Source: Methylocapsa sp. S129
Lineage (GTDB): Bacteria > Pseudomonadota > Alphaproteobacteria > Rhizobiales > Beijerinckiaceae
Assembly: GCF_009765995.1 (NCBI RefSeq)
Contig: NZ_LMUI01000042.1
Coordinates: 468,592-532,591, forward strand
Direction of reading: 5' to 3'
Length of the DNA stretch: 64,000 bases
A model generated the notes under the pieces. That model did not search any database and had not been told where the DNA came from. It saw nothing but the letters and a program-made list of their open reading frames with translations. The position numbers and the translations under genes are program-made. Below, one piece after another: positions 7,569-21,096 of this stretch. Every line of letters begins with the position of its first letter. The stretch's first letter is position 1.

Positions 7569-7889
7569 ATGGTCTATCGGATCGATCCTGAGCATGATCG
7601 GCAATATATCGAGGAATTCCACCGCAAGCCGATCGGCGCGCATAGCCCCGGCCTGATGCGGCTGCTCACCATCATGCGCCAGGATCCCAGCGGCTTCCAG
7701 GTGATCCTCGTCTGCCGGAAGCCATTCGCGGAATGGGTGCTGGCGACGATGCCCCCCAACCGCGCCGATCCCATCGTCATCGAAGACGCTCCGGTCTTCG
7801 CCAGTCGGGAGGAGGCGGAATGGGAAGTCTTCCGGCGCCGGTGGCGCAAACTCACCGGCGAGGCGATCAACCAGGCGTTTGGCGATTGA
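7569..7889 (+). CDS. N,N-dimethylformamidase alpha (small) subunit-like protein
   Basis: 106-residue soluble protein directly upstream of a DMFase-type large subunit, in the position and near the size of the small subunit of alpha2beta2-type N,N-dimethylformamidases. Recognisable features are HSPGLMRLLTIMRQDP, the strand FQVILVCRKPFAEWVLATM and the C-terminal helix EEAEWEVFRRRWRKLTGEAI. The call rests largely on gene order plus this weak likeness. A GGAGG ribosome-binding site sits just upstream (about 7559-7563). The gap to the HAD gene is 15 bases, so the four genes look like one transcript. Confidence 0.65.
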   Translation: MVYRIDPEHDRQYIEEFHRKPIGAHSPGLMRLLTIMRQDPSGFQVILVCRKPFAEWVLATMPPNRADPIVIEDAPVFASREEAEWEVFRRRWRKLTGEAINQAFGD

Positions 7890-7944
7890 CGACGGCCGCC
7901 ACCGATCGACCGGGGACGTTTCATCCAGCAAGCAGAGACAGGCC

Positions 7945-10212
7945 ATGCTCAAGATCGTCGGATATCCCGATCGCTATACGGTGGCGCCAGGCGAAGACAT
8001 CGCCTTCCTTGTGTCGCTCGAAGAAGGCGATCATTTCGACGCGCGCCTGGTGCGCGTCGTCCACGGCGATTGCAATCCCGGAGGCCCCGGTCTGAAGTTT
8101 CGATCCGTTCCGACGGCGGTCGACGGCCGCTATCGCGGCAAGCCGCAGCGGATCGATGCCGGCTCTTACATGACGACCGAGGCGGCGCCGGCGATCGCGG
8201 CGGCGCCGTTCACGTTCTTTGCGATGATCTGGCCGACCTTGCCCGACCGGCCCGATCAGACGCTCGCCGCGCAATGGGATTCGGCCGGCAAGCGCGGTTT
8301 CAGGATCGAGATCAACCGCGGCCGGCTCGCTCTGACCGTTGGCGATGGTTCGGGCGCGGTTTCCACAATCTCGACCGGCAAAGCCATGCTCACGCGCCAA
8401 TGGTATTCGGTCGTCGTGTCGATCGATCCCGGCGCGCGCGCCGTCACGCTCGATCAGCAGCCAATGCGCGCTTATGCGCAGATCGACGACCGCGATCGAT
8501 TCCAGGGCGTCCTCGACATCGCCCCGGCGGCGTTCGACGCGCCGCTCTTCATCGCCGGCTGTCCGCAAGCGGACGGCGAAATCGGCATGCATTTCGATGG
8601 GAAAATAGATGGCCCGACATTTCTGGCTGGCGTCCATGCGCCCGAAACCCGCGATGCGCTCTTGCGCGCCCATCTCTCTCACGCGCTCAGCGTCGCCGTG
8701 CTCGCCCGCTGGGATTTTTCAAAGGAAATAAGTACCACGCGCGCCGTCGACATCGGCTCGCATGGGCGCCATGGACGCCTCGTCCATCTGCCGGCGCGCG
8801 GCATGAAGGGCTGGAACTGGACCGGCGAGGCGCATGACTGGGCCAGCAAGCCCGAACATTACGGCGCCATTCATTTCCATAGCGACGACGTCTACGACGC
8901 CGGCTGGGATCCCTCGGTCGCGCTGACGATTCCCGCCGGCCTGAAGAGCGGGCCCTACGCTTTGCATGTGCGTTGCGGCGACAGCGACGAGACGGCGACA
9001 CGCGAAGATTACATCGCCTTTTTCGTGCGCCCGCCGCGCCGCGCGATTCCCGGGCGGAAGCGGCCTTCGGTGGCGTTCCTTGCGCCGACCGCCTCCTATC
9101 TCGCCTATGCCAATCACGGCGAACACATAACCGCGCGCGGGGCGGAGCTGCAGATGGGCCGGTTGCTGCCGTTCGGCCATGCCGACCTCTACATGTACGA
9201 TCATCCGGAACTGGGCGGCTCGCTCTATGATTGCCACGCCGACGGTTCGGGCGTCTGCTATTCGAGCCGGCTGCGCCCCAACCTCAATTATTCCCCGCGC
9301 TATCATTCCTGGCTCGGCGGCCACGGATCGGCGCTCTATCAATATAACGCCGACACGCATCTGTTCGACTGGCTCGACCATCAAGGCGTCGACTACGATG
9401 TCGTGACCGACGAGGACCTGCATCAGGACGGCTATCGTCTGATCCAGGATTACCGTGTCATCCTGACGGGAACCCACCCCGAATATCATTCGACGGCGAT
9501 GTGGGACGCGATGAAGGCGTGGATCGATCGCGGCGGGCGTCTGATGTATATGGGCGGCAACGGCTGGTATTGGCGGATTGCGTTTCACGATGAACTGCCC
9601 GGCGTGATCGAGCTGCGCCGCGCCGAGGACGGCATCCGCACCTGGATCGCGGAGCCCGGCGAATATTATCAATCCTTCAATGGCGAATATGGCGGACTTT
9701 GGCGGCGCATCGGGCGCGCGCCGAACGTGATGTGCGGCGTCGGCTTCATCGCTCAGGGGTTTGACATCAGTTCGTTTTATCGGCGCGCGCCGGACGCCGC
9801 CAACCCGCGCGCGGCCTTTATCTTCGAGGGTGTCGAGGACGAAATCATTGGCGATTTCGGGCTGATCGGCGGCGGCGCGGCCGGCATCGAGCTGGACTGC
9901 CTCGCCACCGATCTTGGATCGCCGCCGAACATGCTCCGGCTCGCTTCCTCTGACGAACATTCGCCGATGATCATGTTGGTGAACGAGGAGTTCGGCGTCG
10001 TGCCGCCCAATCTGGGCGGCGACGTCAACGCCCGCGTTCGGGCCGATCTCGCCTTTGGCGAAACGCCAGCGGGCGGCGCGCTATTTTGCACCTCGTCGAT
10101 CGCATGGTGCGGGTCGCTCTCCCACAACCATTACGACAATAATGTTTCCAGAATCACTTTGAACGTCTTGAAACGGTTCATGGAGGAGGCGCCTTTCCCA
10201 ACGGGGCCTTGA
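7945..10212 (+). CDS. N,N-dimethylformamidase beta (large) subunit-like amidohydrolase
   Basis: 755-residue protein of the DMFase large-subunit family. Known members hydrolyse N,N-dimethylformamide to dimethylamine and formate with a mononuclear iron held by tyrosines and a glutamate. The N-terminal part is beta-rich, a LamG-like region follows (FTFFAMIWPTLP to about residue 230), and the C-terminal half carries the family core: RPSVAFLAPTASYLAYANH, NLNYSPRYHSWLGG, HLFDWLDHQGVDYDVVTDED, VILTGTHPEYHS and GGRLMYMGGNGWYWR. E513 in HPEY is a plausible metal ligand (inference). The ATG at 7945 is used; an upstream TTG at 7879 would overlap the alpha gene. Many family members have unknown substrates, and the coupled sugar kinase and phosphatase argue against simple DMF breakdown. 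Confidence 0.82.
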   Translation: MLKIVGYPDRYTVAPGEDIAFLVSLEEGDHFDARLVRVVHGDCNPGGPGLKFRSVPTAVDGRYRGKPQRIDAGSYMTTEAAPAIAAAPFTFFAMIWPTLPDRPDQTLAAQWDSAGKRGFRIEINRGRLALTVGDGSGAVSTISTGKAMLTRQWYSVVVSIDPGARAVTLDQQPMRAYAQIDDRDRFQGVLDIAPAAFDAPLFIAGCPQADGEIGMHFDGKIDGPTFLAGVHAPETRDALLRAHLSHALSVAVLARWDFSKEISTTRAVDIGSHGRHGRLVHLPARGMKGWNWTGEAHDWASKPEHYGAIHFHSDDVYDAGWDPSVALTIPAGLKSGPYALHVRCGDSDETATREDYIAFFVRPPRRAIPGRKRPSVAFLAPTASYLAYANHGEHITARGAELQMGRLLPFGHADLYMYDHPELGGSLYDCHADGSGVCYSSRLRPNLNYSPRYHSWLGGHGSALYQYNADTHLFDWLDHQGVDYDVVTDEDLHQDGYRLIQDYRVILTGTHPEYHSTAMWDAMKAWIDRGGRLMYMGGNGWYWRIAFHDELPGVIELRRAEDGIRTWIAEPGEYYQSFNGEYGGLWRRIGRAPNVMCGVGFIAQGFDISSFYRRAPDAANPRAAFIFEGVEDEIIGDFGLIGGGAAGIELDCLATDLGSPPNMLRLASSDEHSPMIMLVNEEFGVVPPNLGGDVNARVRADLAFGETPAGGALFCTSSIAWCGSLSHNHYDNNVSRITLNVLKRFMEEAPFPTGP

Positions 10213-12406: not shown

Positions 12407-13654
12407 TCATAAACCTGCGCGCGCCTCGACGATGCGGTCGGCCAGATAGGAAGCGTCGCGCGCGACGCCTGAGAAGCGACCAGAGCCCCACGTGTGCAGC
12501 CAGGGCAGGCCGATAAAATAGAGACCCGGATGCGGCGAGACGCCGCGATGGTGTTTGGGATGGCCGGCGCCGTTAAAGACGGGCGCGTCGAGCCAGCGAA
12601 AATCGGGCTGGAAGCCGATGCACCAGATGATCGAACTTATGCCTGCCGCCTCAAGATCGAGCGAGAGCGTCTCTTCAGCCGGCTGCCAGACCGGCGCATA
12701 GACCGAGGGCGCGGGCGCTTCGATTTTGTTTTCAGCGATATATTTGTCGATTGCGGCGTTGATGCCGTTATAGGTCTGGTCGGCCTGGTCGAGCGAGGCG
12801 CGCAAATTGCCGGCAAAACTCAGCGTGGCGCCATCGAGATCCTTCAACAGGCCGTAGAGGCGCATGCCTTCGAGCGCAAATTTGCGCAGATCGATATCGC
12901 GCCCGCCGTCGCGTCCCGTCACGTAATGATTGGTGTTGTCGCGCACGCCTTCGCGCAAGGGATGACGCTCGACCGGCATTTGATAATAGCCCATGTCTGC
13001 GAGCCAGGCGACGACGTCGCGGCCGCGATAAAAACGCGCGCAGCGCGGCGCATGGCCGATCGCCAGATGCACCTTGCGCCCGGCCAGATGCAAATCTTCG
13101 GCGATCTGCGCGCCCGACTGCCCCGAGCCGACGACGAGCACGCCGCCATCGGGAAGCGCGGCGGGGTTGCGATATTGCTCGGAATGAATCTGCGTGATCG
13201 ATTTGGGTAGCCGCTCGGCCATGCGCGGCACGATCGGAATGTGGTAGCCGCCGGAGGCGACGGCGACCTGATCGGCTTGGTACGCGCCGTCCGAAGTGAC
13301 GACGTCAAAGCCGCCTTCACTGCGAGGGGTCACGCGGGTGACCGCGATTCCTTCGCGCAAGGGCGCATCGACGAGGTCGCGAAATCCGCTGAGATAGGTG
13401 GTGATCTCGTTCTTCTTCATGAAACCGTGCGGATCGGACCCGGCATAGGGATGGCCGGGCAGATCGCATTGCCAGTTCGGCGTCACCAGCGTGAAAGAAT
13501 CCCAGCGGCTGTCGCTCCAGACATGCATGGCGCTGTGCTTTTCGAAAACGAGATGATCCACGCCGCGCTGTTTCAGGAAATGACTGAGCGACAGGCCGGC
13601 CTGGCCTGCGCCGACGATGGCGACGGGCAGATGGGAGGGGACAGGGGATGTCAT
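12407..13654 (-). CDS. nitH: Nit1C flavin-dependent oxidoreductase (MSMEG_0569 family)
   Basis: 415-residue FAD/NADPH monooxygenase-like protein, last gene of the Nit1C cluster. The FAD-binding Rossmann motif is [12 protein letters not shown] near residues 10-21 and the NADPH-binding motif [17 protein letters not shown] is near the middle. The C-terminus has the family-type [20 protein letters not shown]. The start at 13654 overlaps the nitG stop by 4 bases, which supports it over the longer frame. In Nit1C this enzyme presumably hydroxylates the pathway product; its substrate is not established. Confidence 0.9.
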
Positions 13655-13956
13655 GGGCGGGCTGATCCCTCTTGTTCGAAAGAATCGACGCGCACGCACG
13701 CGTCTTCGATATCTGCGAAGCGCGCGCAGCTCGCTTCGATGCGGGCGAGCTGGCCAAGCGCCAACGAACAGGCGCGGCCGTATTTGGCCTTGACCCGATC
13801 GCTGGCGATATGAAGCGCGGTCTGGCTGCGCGCCAGAAAATCGGCGAGCGCATAGGATTCGCCGGGCGCGAAATGCTCAGCGACCACCAGCGAGGGTGAG
13901 TAGCAGCTCTCCCTGCTCCCATCCGGCCATTGGATGTGGAAGCGCATTTCAGGCAT
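13651..13956 (-). CDS. nitG: Nit1C MSMEG_0570-family nitrogen-starvation-response protein
   Basis: 101-residue protein starting [14 protein letters not shown], the hallmark N-terminus of the MSMEG_0570 family found only in Nit1C-type clusters. [25 protein letters not shown] follows. No enzymatic motif is visible; a carrier, chaperone or binding role is possible. It overlaps the glycosyltransferase gene by 8 bases and nitH by 4, so it is translated within the coupled chain. The symbol follows the nitBCDEFGH naming used for cyanotrophic Pseudomonas; matching it to nitG is by family and position. Confidence 0.85.
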
Positions 13957-15112
13957 GCTCAAGCTCCGCGAGCGCGTCATAGACGGGGCGATGCGCCGCG
14001 CCGACGCGGAGCCAGTCGTGGCGCGCCGCGACGGCCAATCCGCGTTTGACGAGACGCGCGCGCAAAACCGGCGCCAGCGCCATCAGCATCGCATCGGCAA
14101 TGCTCGAAATGGAATTGGGACGACACCAGACGACATCGTCTTCGGCGAGATATTCGGTGAAAGGCGCGATCCGCGACGTGACGACAGGGACGCCGCTCGC
14201 CATCGCCTCAAGGACGACGAGGCCGAAGCCTTCCTTGACGGAGGGAAAGACCAGCGCATCGGCGATCCGGTAGAGTGCGGGCAGGTCGGATTGCGCGATC
14301 GGGCCGGCGATCGCCACCGCGCCGGGTGGGAGCCCGCTGGCGGCGAGCGCTGTGGAGAAGCGCGCCTGATAATCCGCGTGATCGAGCAAAGACGCGCCGC
14401 CAGCGATCAGGAGTTGCGCGCCGGCGCGGATGCGTCGGACCTGAGCGAAGGCTTCGAGGACGCCAATCGTGTTCTTGCGCTCCTCCACGCCGCCGATGGC
14501 GAGGAATATCGGGCCGGCTTTCAGGCCGAGGCGTGCGCGTAGCGAGTCCTCCCGTCTATCGCCTTGCGGCGAAAACCGGATGCGATCGACGCCATTGCCC
14601 ACCAGCGTGGCGGCGCGGCCAAAATGCGCGCCCAGATGGTCGCGCCATAGGCGGCTGACGACGAAAAGCTCATCGGCGTCGAGGATCGCGCGGGTCTGCA
14701 GCGCCGACAGGCGTTGGTCGGCGAAGGCGTCGACATGATGGACGGTGCGCGCGAAGCGGCGGATCAGGCCGCGCTCCTTCAGCGTCGCCAAAGCATTGCC
14801 GGAAATACCGTCCTGGGCGTGGAAAACATCGAAGCGCCGATGCGCCGGATTTTCGAAATGGGCGACATAATCGGCGATGCGCGCCTCCACCATCGCCGTC
14901 CTGTCGGCGCCGACCGGCGAGGCGGGAACCGACACGGCGCCGCATAGCGTCTCGCGGAAGAAGCCCGTACCCTTCACGTCGGGCGCGTGGACGACAATTT
15001 CGCAGCCAAGCCGCGTCAGCGCATCGCCCAGTTCCAGCGCATGGACGACGCCGCCGCGCGGATTGGTCGAATGCGCGAGGATGGCGACGCGCAGCGGCGG
15101 GGCGCTCGTCAT
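13949..15112 (-). CDS. Nit1C glycosyltransferase (MSMEG_0565 family, GT4)
   Basis: 387-residue GT4-type (GT-B fold) glycosyltransferase. The N-terminus is LRVAILAHSTNPRGGVVHALELGDAL, the middle has VVSRLWRDHLG and GNGVD, and the donor-binding region near the C-terminus is FPSVKEGFGLVVLEAMASGVPVV with the EX7E motif. The start at 15112 overlaps the nitF stop by 4 bases (ATGA). It is an extra gene compared with the seven-gene nitBCDEFGH version of the cluster, and its presence suggests the cluster's product is glycosylated (inference). Confidence 0.88.
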   Translation of the reverse strand: MTSAPPLRVAILAHSTNPRGGVVHALELGDALTRLGCEIVVHAPDVKGTGFFRETLCGAVSVPASPVGADRTAMVEARIADYVAHFENPAHRRFDVFHAQDGISGNALATLKERGLIRRFARTVHHVDAFADQRLSALQTRAILDADELFVVSRLWRDHLGAHFGRAATLVGNGVDRIRFSPQGDRREDSLRARLGLKAGPIFLAIGGVEERKNTIGVLEAFAQVRRIRAGAQLLIAGGASLLDHADYQARFSTALAASGLPPGAVAIAGPIAQSDLPALYRIADALVFPSVKEGFGLVVLEAMASGVPVVTSRIAPFTEYLAEDDVVWCRPNSISSIADAMLMALAPVLRARLVKRGLAVAARHDWLRVGAAHRPVYDALAELEHA

Positions 15113-16104
15113 GCCGCGCTCTCCCGCGGTCCGCAGCCAAGGAGGGGGTTTGCCGCGAAATCCCAGATCGTCTCGACGGCTCCGCCATGCCGGATCGACA
15201 CCGCGCCGCCCGCATGCACGGCGCCGATGTCGGCGGCCGCGATGTGGCGTTCGGCGAACAGGCGCGTCACGGCCCCGACATTGGCGGGGCGAACGGCGAT
15301 GAGATAGCCGTAGCTCGGAAAGGTCGTGAGCCAGCGGTCGAGCGCGACGCCAGCGGGCCTGGGCGCGGCCTCGACGTCGATGACGATGCCAACGCCTGAA
15401 CATTCCGCCAGCATCGCGGCGGTGCCGACGAGGCCGCCCTGGCTGATATCCTTGGCGGCGTGCGCGAGTCCCGCTTCTGCGATGCGCGGCAAAAGTTCGA
15501 GGTCGCCGCGCAGACGCGCGGCGGGCGTGTCAGTCGCCGCCTCCCAATTGGAAAAGGGCTCGCGGTAGCGCCCCCGCAGATCGATCGCAGCGACAAGGCG
15601 ATCGCCCGGCCGCGCGTCGAAACTCGTCAGCAGGCGGCTGGCGCGGCCGAGAATGGCGACGGAAAGCTGCGCCCGATCCGTGCGGATGTTGGTATGGCCG
15701 CCGACGATCGGCACGCCAAAACGTTGCGAGGCCGCGCGCATGCCGTCGAGAATCGGCGCCGCTTCCGCCTCGCCATCGGCCCATAAGGCGTCGATGATCG
15801 CGATAGGCCGTCCACCCATCGCCGCGATGTCGGAGACATTGACCATCACGCCGCACCAGCCGGCGAACCAGGGATCGCCGGCGACGAATTCGTTCATGAA
15901 CCCTTCGATCGCAAACAACAGATGGCCGTCGCCATCCTCGATTGCGGCGCAATCGTCGCCGACCGGCGTGAGCGATCGGCCCGACAGGCCAAGCCGGCGC
16001 GCGACCGCGCCGATGTCGGCCTTGGCGGCAAGCCCGCGGTTCGCGCGCAGCGAGCGCGCCAGCGCCTGGATGTCGATGCGCTCGATTGTGGCGTCCGCTT
16101 GCAT
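15109..16104 (-). CDS. nitF: Nit1C AIR-synthase-like protein (sll0787 family)
   Basis: 331-residue member of the PurM/ThiL/HypE superfamily, an ATP-dependent phosphotransfer or amidine-forming fold. Family-type motifs are LTPVGDDCAAIEDGDGHLLFAIEGF, VMVNVSDIAAMGGRPIAIIDALW, VPIVGGHTN and AAKDISQGGLVGTAAMLAE. It probably activates an amide, carboxylate or similar group by phosphorylation within the Nit1C pathway; the substrate is unknown. The ATG at 16104 shares its A with the nitE stop (TGATG). The open frame continues upstream to 16389, but that part is nitE read out of frame. Confidence 0.88.
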   Translation of the reverse strand: MQADATIERIDIQALARSLRANRGLAAKADIGAVARRLGLSGRSLTPVGDDCAAIEDGDGHLLFAIEGFMNEFVAGDPWFAGWCGVMVNVSDIAAMGGRPIAIIDALWADGEAEAAPILDGMRAASQRFGVPIVGGHTNIRTDRAQLSVAILGRASRLLTSFDARPGDRLVAAIDLRGRYREPFSNWEAATDTPAARLRGDLELLPRIAEAGLAHAAKDISQGGLVGTAAMLAECSGVGIVIDVEAAPRPAGVALDRWLTTFPSYGYLIAVRPANVGAVTRLFAERHIAAADIGAVHAGGAVSIRHGGAVETIWDFAANPLLGCGPRESAA

Positions 16105-16643
16105 CACGCCGCCTTGCGCAAAGCCACGAAGCCCGTCTCCGGCGCAGCGAAAGGCGGATAGAAATCGAGATTGGCTTCCATCAGATGGTGCGGCCTGCCG
16201 TGCAGGTCGATGGGCGCGATGGCGCTCCAGTGCAATTTGCTGAACAGCAACGCGTTCTGGCTCTGCACATGGGCCAGGAAGCGCGTGCAGCCGCGCGCAT
16301 GCGCCGATGAGACGGCGAGGCGGATCAGGCCAGCGCCGAGCGCGCCGATCCGTCGATATTCGGCTGCGACCGCGAGCCGCGAGCCCCACCAGACGCCTGG
16401 TTCGGTTTCGTGAATGCGCACCGTTCCGACCACTTCATCCGCGGCGACGCCGACGAATGAGACGGCGACGAGCGCAATGGCGATTTTGTCGGTCGCGTCG
16501 CGGTCGTCATGTGCGAAAATTTTCTGCTCCTCGCAGAAAACCTGACGACGCAGCGCGGCGGCGGCGTTCTTCTCCCAGGAATCGACCGCGAATTTGATCT
16601 GGAATTCGCTCGGCAGGAACGGCGCGAAAGGTTCGAAAATCAT
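16104..16643 (-). CDS. nitE: Nit1C GNAT-family N-acetyltransferase (MSMEG_0567/sll0786)
   Basis: 179-residue GNAT acyltransferase. The N-terminus IKFAVDSWEKNAAAALRRQVFCEEQKIF is characteristic of the MSMEG_0567/sll0786 family. The acetyl-CoA site is in GSRLAVAAEYRRIGALGAGLIRLAV, followed by RFLAHVQSQNALLFSKLHW. It would acylate an amine made by earlier Nit1C steps. The start at 16643 overlaps the nitD stop by 4 bases. The in-frame extension back to 17138 reads nitD out of frame and is rejected. Confidence 0.88.
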   Translation of the reverse strand: MIFEPFAPFLPSEFQIKFAVDSWEKNAAAALRRQVFCEEQKIFAHDDRDATDKIAIALVAVSFVGVAADEVVGTVRIHETEPGVWWGSRLAVAAEYRRIGALGAGLIRLAVSSAHARGCTRFLAHVQSQNALLFSKLHWSAIAPIDLHGRPHHLMEANLDFYPPFAAPETGFVALRKAA

Positions 16644-17767
16644 GCGATCGCCTCCAGTTCGGGTTGATGGCGCTCGTAGGTCGCGAGCGCGGAACAGGCG
16701 CCGCATTTGGCGCAACCGGCTTTGACGTCGACGGATTTGAGGCCGCCATCGATCAGCATGCGCGCGAGCGGTTTGAGGATCGCGTGCATGAAGGACGGGG
16801 CCGGCGCCGGATGGCTCTCGAGCGGCGTCCCCGAAATCGGCACGAAGGGTACGACAAAGGGATAGACGCCGATGGCGACCATTCGTTCGCAGACGCCGAG
16901 AATTTCCTCCGCCGTATCGCCGAGTCCGGCGAGAATGTAGCTGGAAACCTGCCCGCGTCCGAAAACGGGCGTCGCCGCCGCGAAAGCCGAGAAATAGCGC
17001 GCCACCGAGACCTGCGCCTTGCCCGGCATGATGCGATGGCGCACGCGCTCCGTCACCGCTTCGAGATGCATGCCGAGCGCATCCGCTCCCGCTTCCTTCA
17101 GCCGGCCGAACCAGGCGTCGTCGTCGGGCGGCTCGCATTGCACCTGAATGGGCAGATCGACCGCCGCTTTCACCGCCGCCGCGCTCTCGGCAAGAATGGC
17201 GGCGCCGCGATCGGCGCCGGCCGGCGTGCCGGTGGTCATGACCATATGCTTGACGCCATCGAGCCGAACCGCGGCCTCGGCCACTTCGGCGAGCTGGGCG
17301 GGCGTCTTGCGCGCGATCGTGCGCCCGGCGGCGAGCGACTGGCCGATCGCGCAGAACTGGCAGGTCTTGGCGCGGCTTTGATAGCGGATGCAGGTTTGCA
17401 GCACCGTCGTCGCCAGCACGTCGCGCCCATGCAGGACCGCGATCTTGGAATAGGGCACGCCGTCGGCCGTTTGCAGGTCGTAGAATTTCGGGCGCAGCGG
17501 AAAAGAAACCTCGCCGAGCGCGAGCCCGTCGCGCAAAACCCGGCTGCGCCCGAAGGCGTCGGGCTTTTCGATGAGATAGGGGCTTTCGAAGGCCGGCGCC
17601 GTATGGACGGGCGCCATCACGGTCATGCCGTCGATCGTGATCGCCTTGTGATCCGAAGGCCCGGCGCCGCCGCGGCGGCTGTCCGCGCCCGCTTTCGGAT
17701 CAACCAGACGCATTCCGAAGGACTGCAACTCGTTGATCAGTCGCTCGGTCGTCATCATCGGTTTCAT
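16640..17767 (-). CDS. nitD: Nit1C radical SAM protein (MSMEG_0568 family)
   Basis: 375-residue radical SAM enzyme. The Cys cluster is C126-X9-C136-X2-C139 ([15 protein letters not shown]), wider than the classical CX3CX2C. A second motif CX2CX2C (C352, C355, C358, in [11 protein letters not shown]) near the C-terminus could hold an auxiliary Fe-S cluster. The N-terminus ELQSFGMRL and [17 protein letters not shown] match the family. The ATG at 17767 is preceded by GGAAG 8 bases upstream and keeps the family N-terminus, so the gene overlaps nitC by 68 bases; a later Met at 17713 would nearly remove the overlap but would cut conserved residues. The reaction is unknown. Confidence 0.9.
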
Positions 17768-18734
17768 GGGCGTGGCTTCCAACAGCGAGAGAAGGGAACG
17801 GCGCGGCGGCATGCATCGCCGCTGCGGGTCTGTTGTCGAAATTGAGACTGAGCAGTTCGGGGCGCGCGTAATGGCCGACCGAATCCATCATCCGCTTGCG
17901 CTTGACGATGAGGCTCATGTCGAGATCGGCGATGAGAAGGCCCTCGCCCTGCGTCAGCGGCGGCGCAAGATGCTTGCCTTCGGGCGAAATGATCGCCGTC
18001 ATGCATCCGCCGGTGAGCGCCTTGCGCAGCTTTTCGTCGGGCGAGATTTTGGCGATCTGCGCTTCCGACAGCCAGCCGGTCGCATTGACGACGAAGCAAC
18101 CGCTCTCCAAAGCGTGATGGCGGATGGTGACTTCGATCTGATCGGCAAAAATCGGCCCGACGAGAGAGCCCGGGAACTGGGCGATGTGGATTTCCTCGTG
18201 CTGGGCCATCAGCGCGTAACGGGCGAGCGGATTGTAGTGCTCCCAGCAGGCAAGGGCGCCGATGCGCCCGACGGCGCTGTGGACGACTTTGAGGCCGGCG
18301 CCGTCGCCCTGGCCCCAGATCATGCGCTCGTGGAAAGTCGGCGTGATCTTGCGCCGCTTCAACAGGATTTCGCCGGTCGCGTCGAAGATGATCTGCGTAT
18401 TGTAGAGGGAGCCGTGATCGCGCTCGTTGACGCCGAGCGCGACGACGATGGCGTGGCGGCGCGCCGCGCTCGCCACCGCCTCGGTCACGGGGCCGGGGAC
18501 GACGACGGCGTTTTCGTAGAGCCGCACATGCTCGCCGCCGGTCTGGACCGGCGGCAGCACGAAGGAAAAATACGGATACCAGGGCACAAAGGTCTCGGGA
18601 AAGACGATGAGTTTGGCGCCCTTGCCGGCCGCCTCGCCGATCGCCGCCAGAACGCGGTCGACCGTTCCGGCCGCCGTCTCCAGGTCGGGCGAGATCTGCG
18701 CCGCCGCGACCCTGATCAATGTCGGTTCCGTCAT
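17700..18734 (-). CDS. nitC: Nit1C nitrilase
   Basis: 344-residue carbon-nitrogen hydrolase of the nitrilase branch that defines Nit1C. The catalytic triad is visible: E47 ([12 protein letters not shown]), K129 (LKRRKITPT) and C163 ([17 protein letters not shown]). [12 protein letters not shown] and CWEHYNPL are typical of true nitrilases that convert nitriles to acids and ammonia. In cyanotrophic Pseudomonas fluorescens the homologue is needed for growth on cyanide. The C-terminus ends in a polar tail ([15 protein letters not shown]) that overlaps nitD by 68 bases and may be lineage-specific. nitB lies 34 bases upstream. Confidence 0.93.
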
Positions 18735-18768
18735 CGCCTGCCTTCTCCTGATGGGCGCGGACCGGCCG

Positions 18769-19251
18769 CTAGAGGGTCCAGGTGTCGAGGATGAAGGCGT
18801 TGTCCCTCCGATGCAGCAGGATCAGGTCGAGCACGTCGAGCGGGTTGATCCCTTTGATGCCGGGAATGAGCGACACGTCGCCGTGGCCGTAGAGCGCCTG
18901 CAGGGCGAAGCGGCAAGCATAAACCTTGCCGCCTTCCTCCATGAATTTGGCGAGCTGATTGTTGAAGTTCTGATGGCCTGGAAACGCTTCGTCGCCCAGC
19001 TTTGGAAAGCCGCGCTGCACGCCGAGCGTGACGCCGGGTCCATACAGCAGCACCGACGTTTCGAAGCCCTTGCGCTTCAGGCGTGTGGCCTGCAGCAGGT
19101 TCACGAAGCCGATGGAGCCTTCGAAAGCGACGGTGTGGAAGGTGACCAGCGCCTTCTCGCCGGGCGCGGCTTTGACGTCCTCGAACACTTTCTCTTCGTA
19201 ATCGACAAGAAAATCGCCCTTCTTGTGGGCTGGCATCGTGACGGCGGGCAT
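18769..19251 (-). CDS. nitB: Nit1C MSMEG_0572/Sll0783-family nitrogen-starvation-response protein
   Basis: 160-residue protein, first gene of the cluster, of the family that includes cyanobacterial Sll0783, a protein strongly induced by nitrogen starvation and needed for polyhydroxybutyrate accumulation there. It resembles a DsrE-like fold ([39 protein letters not shown]). C-terminal features are [17 protein letters not shown] and [13 protein letters not shown]. The ATG at 19251 is preceded by AGGAG 9 bases upstream and lies about 50 bases downstream of the start expected from the sigma-54 promoter at 19312-19326. Function is unknown; it is not an obvious enzyme. Confidence 0.92.
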
Positions 19252-19311
19252 GAGGCGTTTCTCCTGAGACGGATCGTCCGCGGCGTAGGCCGTGGATCAC
19301 AGGAGAACACT

Positions 19312-19326
19312 GCAATCAATGTGCCA
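19312..19326 (-). promoter_or_regulatory. Sigma-54 (RpoN) promoter for the Nit1C operon
   Basis: Read on the minus strand the sequence is TGGCAC-ATTGA-TTGC, with the -24 GG and -12 GC separated by exactly 10 bases. This matches the TGGCAC-N5-TTGC core of sigma-54 promoters. It points into nitB with a predicted transcription start near 19301. RpoN promoters commonly serve nitrogen-limitation genes activated by NtrC, which fits the nitrogen-starvation families in the operon. No clear NtrC site (GCACC-N5-GGTGC type) was found by eye. Confidence 0.8.
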
Positions 19327-19330
19327 ATTA

Positions 19331-19378
19331 TTGTATGTAATGACTGGTATCCTGGAAATGGCAATCAATACATTCAAT
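19331..19378. promoter_or_regulatory. Imperfect inverted repeat upstream of the Nit1C promoter
   Basis: TTGTATGTAATG (19331-19342) and CAATACATTCAA (19367-19378) are inverted copies agreeing at 10 of 12 positions. They lie in the 453-base gap between nitB and the divergent MocR gene, just upstream of the -24 element. The pair could bind an activator of sigma-54 or the MocR regulator; neither role can be told from sequence alone. Confidence 0.35.
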
Positions 19379-19510: not shown

Positions 19511-19540
19511 TTGACAAAGTTTTCCTGTGCAGTCAATAAT
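19511..19540 (+). promoter_or_regulatory. Candidate sigma-70-type promoter for the MocR regulator
   Basis: TTGACA at 19511-19516 is followed about 18 bases later by AATAAT, a fair -35/-10 pair on the plus strand about 165 bases before the MocR start. The -10 is weak, so this is tentative. Confidence 0.35.
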
Positions 19541-19704
19541 GCAGTCATTCGCCGCAGAGTCACTCGCGTAAAAGGCGAGCATCCTCAACCGAAGTCTATC
19601 GCAAGGTGCGCGATCGGCCAGCGTGACAAGCCGGCTTGCCGCACGATACAGTCAATTTCCGCGACGCCGAGTCGCCGCGAAATATCGCATTCAGATTGAG
19701 TAAA

Positions 19705-21096
19705 ATGGCCGAATGGACGCCCAATCTCGCTAGCAGCGATAGACCTCGCTATTTGGCCATCGCCGACCTCATTGCGGCGGATATGAAAGAAGGGCGACTT
19801 TCTCCCGGCGATCGCCTGCCGCCGCAGCGCAAGCTGGCGGGCCGGCTCAATGTCGATTTCACGACTGTTGCGAGGGGTTATGTCGAAGCGCAGAAGCGCG
19901 GCCTGATCGAATCGCGCGTCGGGCAGGGCACTTTCGTGCGCGCGGCGCCCAAACTTGGTCTGCCCGTGCGGCTCCCGGCGCAACGCCGTGTCGAGATTGT
20001 CGATCTTTCAATGAATCTGCCGCCGGAGCCCGACGACCCGGCGCTGATCGAACGTATGCAGGCCGGCCTTGCCGAGGTCGGCCGCGATCTCGTTTCGCTT
20101 TTGCGCTACCAGGGTTTTGGCGGATCGCCCGCCGACAAGGACGCGGCGTCCGCATGGTTAGGGCGGCGCGCGCTTGTTCCCTCCCAGGATCGCATCTTCA
20201 TCACCCCGGGCGCTCATCCCGCGCTGCTGGGAATTTTTGGGATTCTGGGGAAAGCGGGCGACGTCATTCTGAGCGAAGCGATCACCTATCCCGGCGCCCG
20301 CTCGATCGCGGCCCAATTGGGGCTCGAGCTCGTTGGATTGCCCATGGACCATGAGGGCGTCGACCCCGCCGCTTTCGCGGACGCCTGCGCGCGTCTCAAG
20401 CCGAAGGGCCTCTATCTCAACCCGACGCTGCAGAATCCGACGACGCTGACCGTCTCCGAGCGACGGCGCGGCGAACTTGCCGCGGTCGCGCGGCGCTGGC
20501 GCGTCCCGATCATCGAAGATGACGCCTATGGCTTTATTCCGGTTCACGGACCGGCGCCGTTTGCGGCGATCGCGCCCGACATCACCTGGCATGTCGCGGG
20601 CCTCGCCAAATGCATCGGCGCAGGCATTCGGGCCGCGTATGTCGTGGTTCCGGACGTGCGCTCGGGCTGGCTGTTCGCCGCCGCCGTTCGCGCCGCGACC
20701 GTGATGGCCTCGCCGCTCACAGTGGCGCTCGCCACGCGTTGGATTGAGGACGGTACGGCGGACGCGATTCTGCGCTTCATCAGAGCGGAAACCGCCGCGC
20801 GACAGGTGCTTGCAACGGAGCTTCTACCGCCAGGAAGTTTCAAGGCCGATCCGCTCAGCTTCAATCTGTGGGCGCAATTGCCGGTTGGTTGGACGCGATC
20901 GGCTTTCATTGGACATATGCGCACGACCGGCGTGGGCGTGGTGGCGAGCGACGCCTTCACCGTTGGCGAAAATCCGCCCGAGGCCGTCCGCATCTGTCTG
21001 GGCGGTCCGACGACGCGCCCGGTGCTTCGGCGCGCGCTCGAATATATGTCGCATGCTCTGGCGGAATCGCCGACCCTGGCGTCGACGTTTCTTTAA
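19705..21096 (+). CDS. MocR-family transcriptional regulator (GntR HTH plus aminotransferase fold)
   Basis: 463-residue fusion of an N-terminal GntR winged helix (residues about 10-80, including PRYLAIADLIAADMKEGRL, GDRLPPQRKLAGRL and GLIESRVGQGTFVR) and a fold-type-I aminotransferase domain. The PLP-type elements include YLNPTLQNPTT, IIEDDAYG and the lysine in HVAGLAKCIGAG. The ATG at 19705 gives the standard MocR N-terminus. It is divergent from nitB across a shared control region. MocR proteins usually regulate an adjacent gene in response to an amino compound plus PLP, so control of Nit1C is a reasonable inference. It could also act elsewhere. Confidence 0.88.
   Translation: MAEWTPNLASSDRPRYLAIADLIAADMKEGRLSPGDRLPPQRKLAGRLNVDFTTVARGYVEAQKRGLIESRVGQGTFVRAAPKLGLPVRLPAQRRVEIVDLSMNLPPEPDDPALIERMQAGLAEVGRDLVSLLRYQGFGGSPADKDAASAWLGRRALVPSQDRIFITPGAHPALLGIFGILGKAGDVILSEAITYPGARSIAAQLGLELVGLPMDHEGVDPAAFADACARLKPKGLYLNPTLQNPTTLTVSERRRGELAAVARRWRVPIIEDDAYGFIPVHGPAPFAAIAPDITWHVAGLAKCIGAGIRAAYVVVPDVRSGWLFAAAVRAATVMASPLTVALATRWIEDGTADAILRFIRAETAARQVLATELLPPGSFKADPLSFNLWAQLPVGWTRSAFIGHMRTTGVGVVASDAFTVGENPPEAVRICLGGPTTRPVLRRALEYMSHALAESPTLASTFL

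Follow-up and report, generated by a model that had tools for sequence, protein, structure and literature searches.

The window analyzed here, a 64-kb stretch from Methylocapsa sp. S129, carries a Nit1C gene cluster, a -24/-12 element of the sigma-54 (RpoN) type before its gene nitB, and a divergent gene encoding a MocR-type regulator, for which we propose the name NitR. The whole is probably best explained by RpoN-dependent transcription that is gated by MocR and takes its ATPase from NtrC. According to this proposal, sigma-54 RNA polymerase would transcribe the Nit1C operon from the conserved -24/-12 promoter, and MocR, with its pyridoxal 5'-phosphate (PLP)/aminotransferase sensor domain, would be the dedicated regulator of the operon, binding tandem direct boxes spaced from the -24 element by about helical turns as well as boxes at its own promoter. 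NtrC, acting in trans, would open the promoter under nitrogen limitation. With opening driven by NtrC and MocR as the dedicated regulator, the operon would act as an AND gate, needing nitrogen shortage (NtrC, RpoN) together with a small-molecule signal (MocR). Comparison of sequences among loci establishes the conservation of the promoter, the linkage of mocR, the co-occurrence of boxes and MocR, and the spacing of the boxes; from these we infer that MocR would bind DNA, that NtrC would act in the opening step, that the signal would be linked to PLP, and that MocR would either help or block transcription.

The -24/-12 element before nitB

The element, TTGGCACATTGATTGCA (19311-19327, minus strand), follows the pattern TTGGCAC-N5-TTGCA and ends 59 bp before the nitB ATG, with the transcription start predicted near 19300. 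The original prediction had placed a TGGCAC-N5-TTGC site with exact -24/-12 spacing about 50 bases upstream of nitB; the site and its spacing were recovered, and the distance suits the predicted start site (about 50 bp) rather than the element, whose -12 GC lies about 61 bp before the ATG. Within the window, TGGCACATTGATTGC at 19326-19312 (minus strand) is the sole exact match (0.11 expected), and 11 of 100 shuffled windows contained one or more. Across the 6.87-Mb genome, the exact pattern was counted 10 times and its reversed control 8 times, and this whole-genome count was rejected as evidence; at the genome-wide density, about 1.5e-4 correctly oriented matches would fall by chance within the 200 bp before nitB. 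Since one exact match is weak by itself, conservation across loci decides.

NitB over the cut-off was found in 15 of 150 relatives (own genome included), in 9 of 289 genomes of a class sample and in 16 of 398 of a phylum sample, a patchy distribution that together gives 33 different Nit1C genomes, two of them less than 90% complete. Named loci were the best 80 of 560 matches, and the family of the NitA-bearing locus L069 gave NitB over the cut-off in 15 of 298 genomes (that of L069 included). After 8 near-duplicates were dropped, the 127 loci left 119 distinct ones.

The element is present in all 15 loci of the relatives, including that of the window, a comparison set beforehand that the RpoN reading survived, and in 31 of the 33 Nit1C loci, at a distance of 64-134 bp upstream of the nitB ATG; its GG and GC do not vary among these 31. 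Exact spacing is kept in 101 of the 119 distinct loci, namely in 85/88 with MocR, 15/15 with NitA and 1/16 with neither. The element is conserved through alpha-, beta- and gammaproteobacteria and was found in none of the 13 distinct cyanobacterial loci. Out of a maximum of 13, scores of 11-13 are the rule, also for the window, and a few loci reach just 10; dinucleotide-shuffled 200-bp regions score at least 10 in 11%, at least 11 in 1.6% and at least 12 in 0.14% of cases. The gene rpoN was found in the genome of the window (PF04552, E 2.9e-66), as in all 33 Nit1C genomes examined.

Reading the site as a sigma-54 promoter for nitB is thus well supported by comparative sequence evidence. The idea that the element is a mere part of a MocR operator was rejected, because the two are separable in both directions: 15/15 NitA loci keep the element without MocR or boxes on the nitB strand, and the loci L059 and L067 have MocR and boxes without the element. 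A direct RpoN mechanism, instead of the cyanobacterial NtcA, had been predicted; its promoter part stands, given rpoN in every genome and an element confined to the proteobacterial side of the comparison with cyanobacteria, and what it lacks is the AAA+ activator that such a promoter requires, along with the MocR gene next door and the boxes.

The MocR regulator and its candidate boxes

The gene divergent from nitB (19705-21096, plus strand) encodes a protein of 463 amino acids that belongs to the MocR subfamily by domain make-up, with a GntR helix-turn-helix domain (PF00392) at residues 16-78 and an aminotransferase I/II domain (PF00155) at 97-445. The lysine of its LAKCIG motif, which we take to be the PLP-binding lysine, is kept in 94.5% of 73 aligned proteins. 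Orthologues with 42-80% identity adjoin nitB in 32 of the 33 loci, and the next-best long matches in the window's own genome are only 26-28% identical. In five loci of the nitrilase clade that contains Methyloversatilis, mocR stands at the far end of the cluster and the boxes are still present. In Rhizobium johnstonii 3841 and R. ruizarguesonis, mocR is missing beside nitB; a 67%-identical mocR lies elsewhere in the genome, with a box 34-44 bp before its ATG, and a pair of 24-25 bits is kept at nitB. The named loci divide alike, proteobacteria having mostly element and MocR and cyanobacteria neither; the exceptions are two Methylomonas loci (L126, L131) with neither sigma-54 element, MocR nor boxes, the two Rhizobium loci with unlinked mocR, locus L143, and L114 from a Phycisphaerales metagenome-assembled genome (MAG), which has a -24/-12-like element and no boxes. 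No MocR match at E 1e-40 was found in the genomes of the two Methylomonas, four cyanobacteria and the Phycisphaerales MAG.

Expectation-maximisation, run on a non-redundant set of 73 promoter regions, yielded a tandem direct repeat of ATTGAWYGCAT with copies about 11-12 bp apart. The matrix was trained on 73 loci, those left from 81 selected ones after removal of 8 near-duplicates; L059, L067 and L069 were not among them, nor were named loci that lack the element or an adjacent divergent MocR. At a threshold of 10 bits, a pair was found in 65 of the 73 regions versus 50 of 1460 shuffles. Top pairs mostly begin at about -61, -49 or -38 relative to the -24 element; the Rayleigh R of the box-to-element spacing was 0.82 at 11.7 bp and 0.58 at 10.5 bp, and 0 of 5000 uniform draws reached 0.82. 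Random ten-locus subsets gave a median R of 0.86, with the 99% point of the null at 0.84. In L059 and L067, the boxes are close to nitB, at -82 and -77 from the ATG.

The boxes accompany the regulator. A pair of at least 10 bits on the nitB strand within 300 bp of nitB was found in 82 of 88 loci from MocR-encoding genomes and in none of the 31 others (15 NitA loci, 13 cyanobacteria, two Methylomonas and L114). When only the 100 bp preceding the -24 element are considered, such a pair is found in 75 of 85 MocR loci versus 0 of 16 others having the element. In view of this co-occurrence, MocR may bind to the direct-repeat boxes. De novo search found the same box near mocR in both lineages, as ATTGACTGTAT in alphaproteobacteria and ATTGATCGCAT in beta- and gammaproteobacteria, and a second, longer copy precedes mocR (ATTGACTGTATATTGTTG and GGGTGCATTGATCGCATG, respectively). 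The helix-turn-helix residues 35, 41 and 52 (463-residue numbering) differ between the lineages with different boxes, a single contrast that is confounded with descent.

In the window, two candidate MocR boxes precede the -24 element on the minus strand, ATTGAATGTAT (19378-19368) and ATTGATTGCCA (19369-19359), together covering 19359-19378. A single inverse box, TTATTGTATGTAA (19328-19340, plus strand), abuts the -24 element, and similar inverse boxes were found in L022, L025, L031, L033 and L060. The well-formed tandem pair of the window, GAATGACTGCATTATTGACTGC (19529-19550, minus strand; 21.1 bits), lies 299 bp before the nitB ATG and overlaps the second hexamer of the best sigma-70-like site for mocR (19511-19540, plus strand), a strong site (11/12) about 165 bp before mocR and a candidate autoregulated mocR promoter. 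Upstream of mocR, the box ATTGACTGTAT at 19646-19656 (minus strand) overlaps the second hexamer of a weaker sigma-70-like site (19623-19652, plus strand).

Probable source of the ATPase and rival explanations

As MocR carries no AAA+ ATPase, promoter opening would most likely come from NtrC in trans. Four PF00158 matches above 70 bits were found in the genome of the window: NtrC (L185, over the TIGR01818 cut-off) and a second, unnamed response regulator (L187), both with a GAFTGA motif, and NtrX (L194, over the NF051870 cut-off) and L197, both without it. Each of the four genomes compared encodes an NtrC over the cut-off; for L187, likely orthologues were found in two of them (75% and 57%) and none in G598. 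Among the GAFTGA-bearing activators recovered, only NtrC is common to all four genomes, which makes it the best candidate and the most likely source of the ATPase.

A different regulator is found in L069, the sole locus of the 33 without an adjacent MocR, where a divergent 648-amino acid gene of the sigma-54-activator type encodes NitA (domain make-up judged from the sequence and AAA+ matches). NitA and the element are found in every one of the 14 further loci from its family, which lack MocR and, on the nitB strand, a box pair; in the window, the divergent gene encodes MocR and not NitA. A nitrilase tree was built from 116 of the 127 loci (MocR 89, NitA 13, neither 14), leaving out nitrilase matches shorter than 220 amino acids or with stops, both Methylomonas among them. 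The three regulator states need just two changes on this tree; a fully supported branch separates the NitA loci from the rest, support for the MocR group is weak (22/42), and the sigma-54 element is common to both lineages.

Within the proposed gating, it is a tentative possibility that MocR is a dedicated co-activator of the sigma-54 promoter, bound on a fixed helical face beside Esigma54 and gating promoter opening by an ATPase that comes in trans (NtrC), in replacement of NitA, the specific AAA+ activator of this operon in pseudomonads. We consider it rather unlikely that NtrC is the sole activator of the same sigma-54 promoter and MocR a plain repressor of nitB and of itself, released by a ligand. 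Repression would agree with a mutant of the MocR gene beside the cio cluster of P. pseudoalcaligenes, which had constitutive cio proteins and led to the regulator being called a putative repressor (a passage in PMC8567248, where the result is cited as unpublished). Binding to the inverse boxes abutting the -24 element in the window and several relatives would block polymerase, and the overlap of window boxes with predicted mocR promoter hexamers is as expected from autorepression. However, the inverse boxes are not general, and the main boxes lie upstream of the polymerase site with approximately one-turn spacing to the -24 element, which speaks against a roadblock, as that would not need such spacing.

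The other explanations concern who drives the promoter and which polymerase is used. A dedicated NitA-like activator encoded elsewhere might act at the sigma-54 site with the boxes as its enhancers, since NitA adjoins the pseudomonad cluster and 9 of 32 MocR-type genomes have an unlinked full-length NitA-like protein (50-56% identity; G018, G058 in a frame with one stop, G123, G146, G191, G310, G407, G413 and G472). This is very improbable and largely refuted: no full-length match was found in the genome of the window, for which NitA in trans was rejected, nor in 22 other MocR genomes, the nitB strand has no box in 15/15 NitA loci, and the boxes go with mocR even if it is unlinked. Equally improbable is the use of a sigma-70 promoter with an incidental -24/-12 match; a 9/12 sigma-70-like site at 19358-19330 (minus strand), three such sites on both strands of the region versus 0.7 expected, and the two of 33 loci without the element would fit it, but exact spacing in most distinct loci and the invariant GG and GC would not. 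That MocR alone activates sigma-54 polymerase with no AAA+ partner is hardly credible. It is consistently tied to this promoter outside pseudomonads, but it has only GntR and aminotransferase domains, NtrC is available, and sigma-54 promoters are said in a passage of PMC4641369 to need enhancer-binding proteins 'without exception'.

Several observations weigh against gating of an RpoN promoter by MocR. Before the -24 element, the window has only a weak form of the conserved tandem pair (5.4-7.1 bits, with an irregular spacing of 9 bp), its strong pair begins 223 bp above the element and over the predicted mocR promoter, and 10 of 85 MocR loci with the element, the window (7.1) among them, miss 10 bits in the 100 bp before it. 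Shuffled 140-bp stretches reach 10 bits in 3.4% of cases, and L083 and L164, of the 31 loci without MocR, reach 11.4-11.5 bits on the opposite strand. The positive counts are to some extent circular, as 73 of these loci served to train the matrix (this does not touch the 0/31); the spacing statistic is weakened by shared descent and the built-in repeat spacing; and given shared ancestry and just two regulator changes on the nitrilase tree, the locus counts are not independent. L059 (G189) and L067 (G781) lack the element and have rpoN, MocR and boxes, and in L143, from an Acetobacteraceae MAG, a mocR of the same direction is accompanied by neither the element nor boxes. Concerning NtrC, the palindrome TGCACYN5RGTGCA at 10/12 or better occurs in 20 of 73 loci versus 5.2% of shuffles, a modest excess, and the matches in L053, L062 and L138 include overlaps with MocR boxes; the window has none at this level (best 9). 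No published experiment on a MocR-type Nit1C locus was found in the literature searched.

A palindrome search of the promoter regions failed to return the NtrC consensus. Loss of rpoN as the cause of the missing element in L059 and L067 was rejected, both genomes having rpoN; these two loci may possibly represent a natural switch of sigma factor.

The Nit1C cluster and comparison with known systems

Nit1C is found across several phyla. In the window, the cluster comprises eight contiguous genes on one strand (12407-19251, minus strand), each above the curated cut-off of its NCBIfam model, in the order TIGR04044, 04048, 04043, 04045, 04049, 04047, 04042 and 04046; this conserved gene set identifies the cluster as Nit1C and agrees with the genes and order of the original prediction. 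The first is nitB of the MSMEG_0572/Sll0783 family (18769-19251, 160 amino acids; TIGR04044, 284 bits, cut-off 109.85), followed by nitC, encoding a Nit6803-family nitrilase (17700-18734, 344 amino acids; TIGR04048, 573 bits, cut-off 502.6), in which a residue check found the predicted E47, K129 and C163 all in place. Its top PDB match is 3WUY (E 7.5e-149), which we take to be Synechocystis Nit6803. Next come a radical SAM protein of the MSMEG_0568 family (16640-17812; TIGR04043, 605 bits), whose start is uncertain and whose profile match starts only at residue 27, a GNAT acetyltransferase (MSMEG_0567/Sll0786; 16104-16643; TIGR04045, 231 bits) and an AIR-synthase-like protein of the sll0787 family (15109-16104; TIGR04049, 465 bits), the latter two starting with ATG. 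A glycosyltransferase of the MSMEG_0565 family (13949-15112; TIGR04047, 487 bits), an MSMEG_0570 family protein (13651-13980; TIGR04042, 130 bits) and an MSMEG_0569 flavin-dependent oxidoreductase (12407-13654; TIGR04046, 678 bits) complete the set. By homology, the cluster appears to serve nitrile or cyanide assimilation. In L058 (G200), Nit1C is rearranged, with the flavoprotein gene between the radical SAM and GNAT genes.

Two kilobases from Nit1C, a large protein (7879-10212, plus strand) has an N,N-dimethylformamidase beta-subunit-like domain (PF20254) and laminin-G-like regions, and is possibly another nitrogen-release enzyme. A RES-domain protein (PF08808; 10272-11419, minus strand) lies beside an Xre/MbcA/ParS-type antitoxin, forming a toxin-antitoxin-like pair. 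No Rfam family reached its gathering score anywhere in the window.

A sigma-54 link for Nit1C is not new, being already known from Pseudomonas NitA; the new part is a consistent partnership of sigma-54 promoter and MocR where pseudomonads have a dedicated AAA+ activator. Sigma-54 promoters normally carry a dedicated ATP-driven activator, and the pairing with MocR is therefore unusual. The literature searched, supplementary files excepted, linked MocR neither with Nit1C nor with a sigma-54 promoter, and described a Nit1C regulator for pseudomonads only. According to a passage in Podar et al. 2005 (PMC1199592), conserved binding sites upstream of Nit1C could not be identified. If true, a MocR co-activator at a sigma-54 promoter would be a regulatory layout absent from that literature. 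With RpoN and a MocR sensor in most sampled proteobacterial copies, the inducer becomes searchable, candidates being an amino compound or a PLP adduct, as for other MocR proteins.

Passages in PMC11049912, PMC6368324 and PMC8567248 describe NitA of Pseudomonas as sigma-54-dependent, and the first of them as a Fis-family regulator divergent from nitBCDEFGH. The nitABCDEFGH cluster of P. pseudoalcaligenes CECT5344 resembles that of the window in its homologous structural genes and divergent regulator, but its regulator is the sigma-54 activator NitA, whereas that of the window is a MocR without ATPase domain. The NitA-bearing family loci (14/14) share the sigma-54 element with the window, CECT5344 being outside the sequences compared. 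Relative to CECT5344, the window has an extra glycosyltransferase gene, as do Burkholderia and Rubrivivax according to a passage in PMC1199592. The cyanobacterial sll0783-type cluster (Nit6803) has homologous NitB and nitrilase, in a family named for its nitrogen-starvation response; unlike the window, its 13 distinct loci have no -24/-12 element, no MocR at the locus and no boxes on the nitB strand.

Among MocR proteins, GabR, TauR and PdxR share the GntR helix-turn-helix and aminotransferase fold of the window's regulator and have direct-repeat operators, and operators of two or three direct boxes make up 27% of MocR regulons, as stated in parts of PMC5320631. The main text of that paper, its supplementary tables apart, does not contain 'nitril', and its sigma passage concerns an extracytoplasmic function (ECF) factor. 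In the cio/nit4 cluster of P. pseudoalcaligenes, a MocR gene is divergent from a cyanide/nitrilase cluster, as here (a passage in PMC8567248); that cluster, with cio and Nit4, differs from Nit1C, and its MocR is likened to that of the window by description and not by sequence. A comparative system is offered by this conserved sigma-54 promoter, which is accompanied by either of two unrelated neighbours, NitA or MocR, and allows one to ask if sigma-54 transcription can be gated by a regulator that lacks an ATPase.

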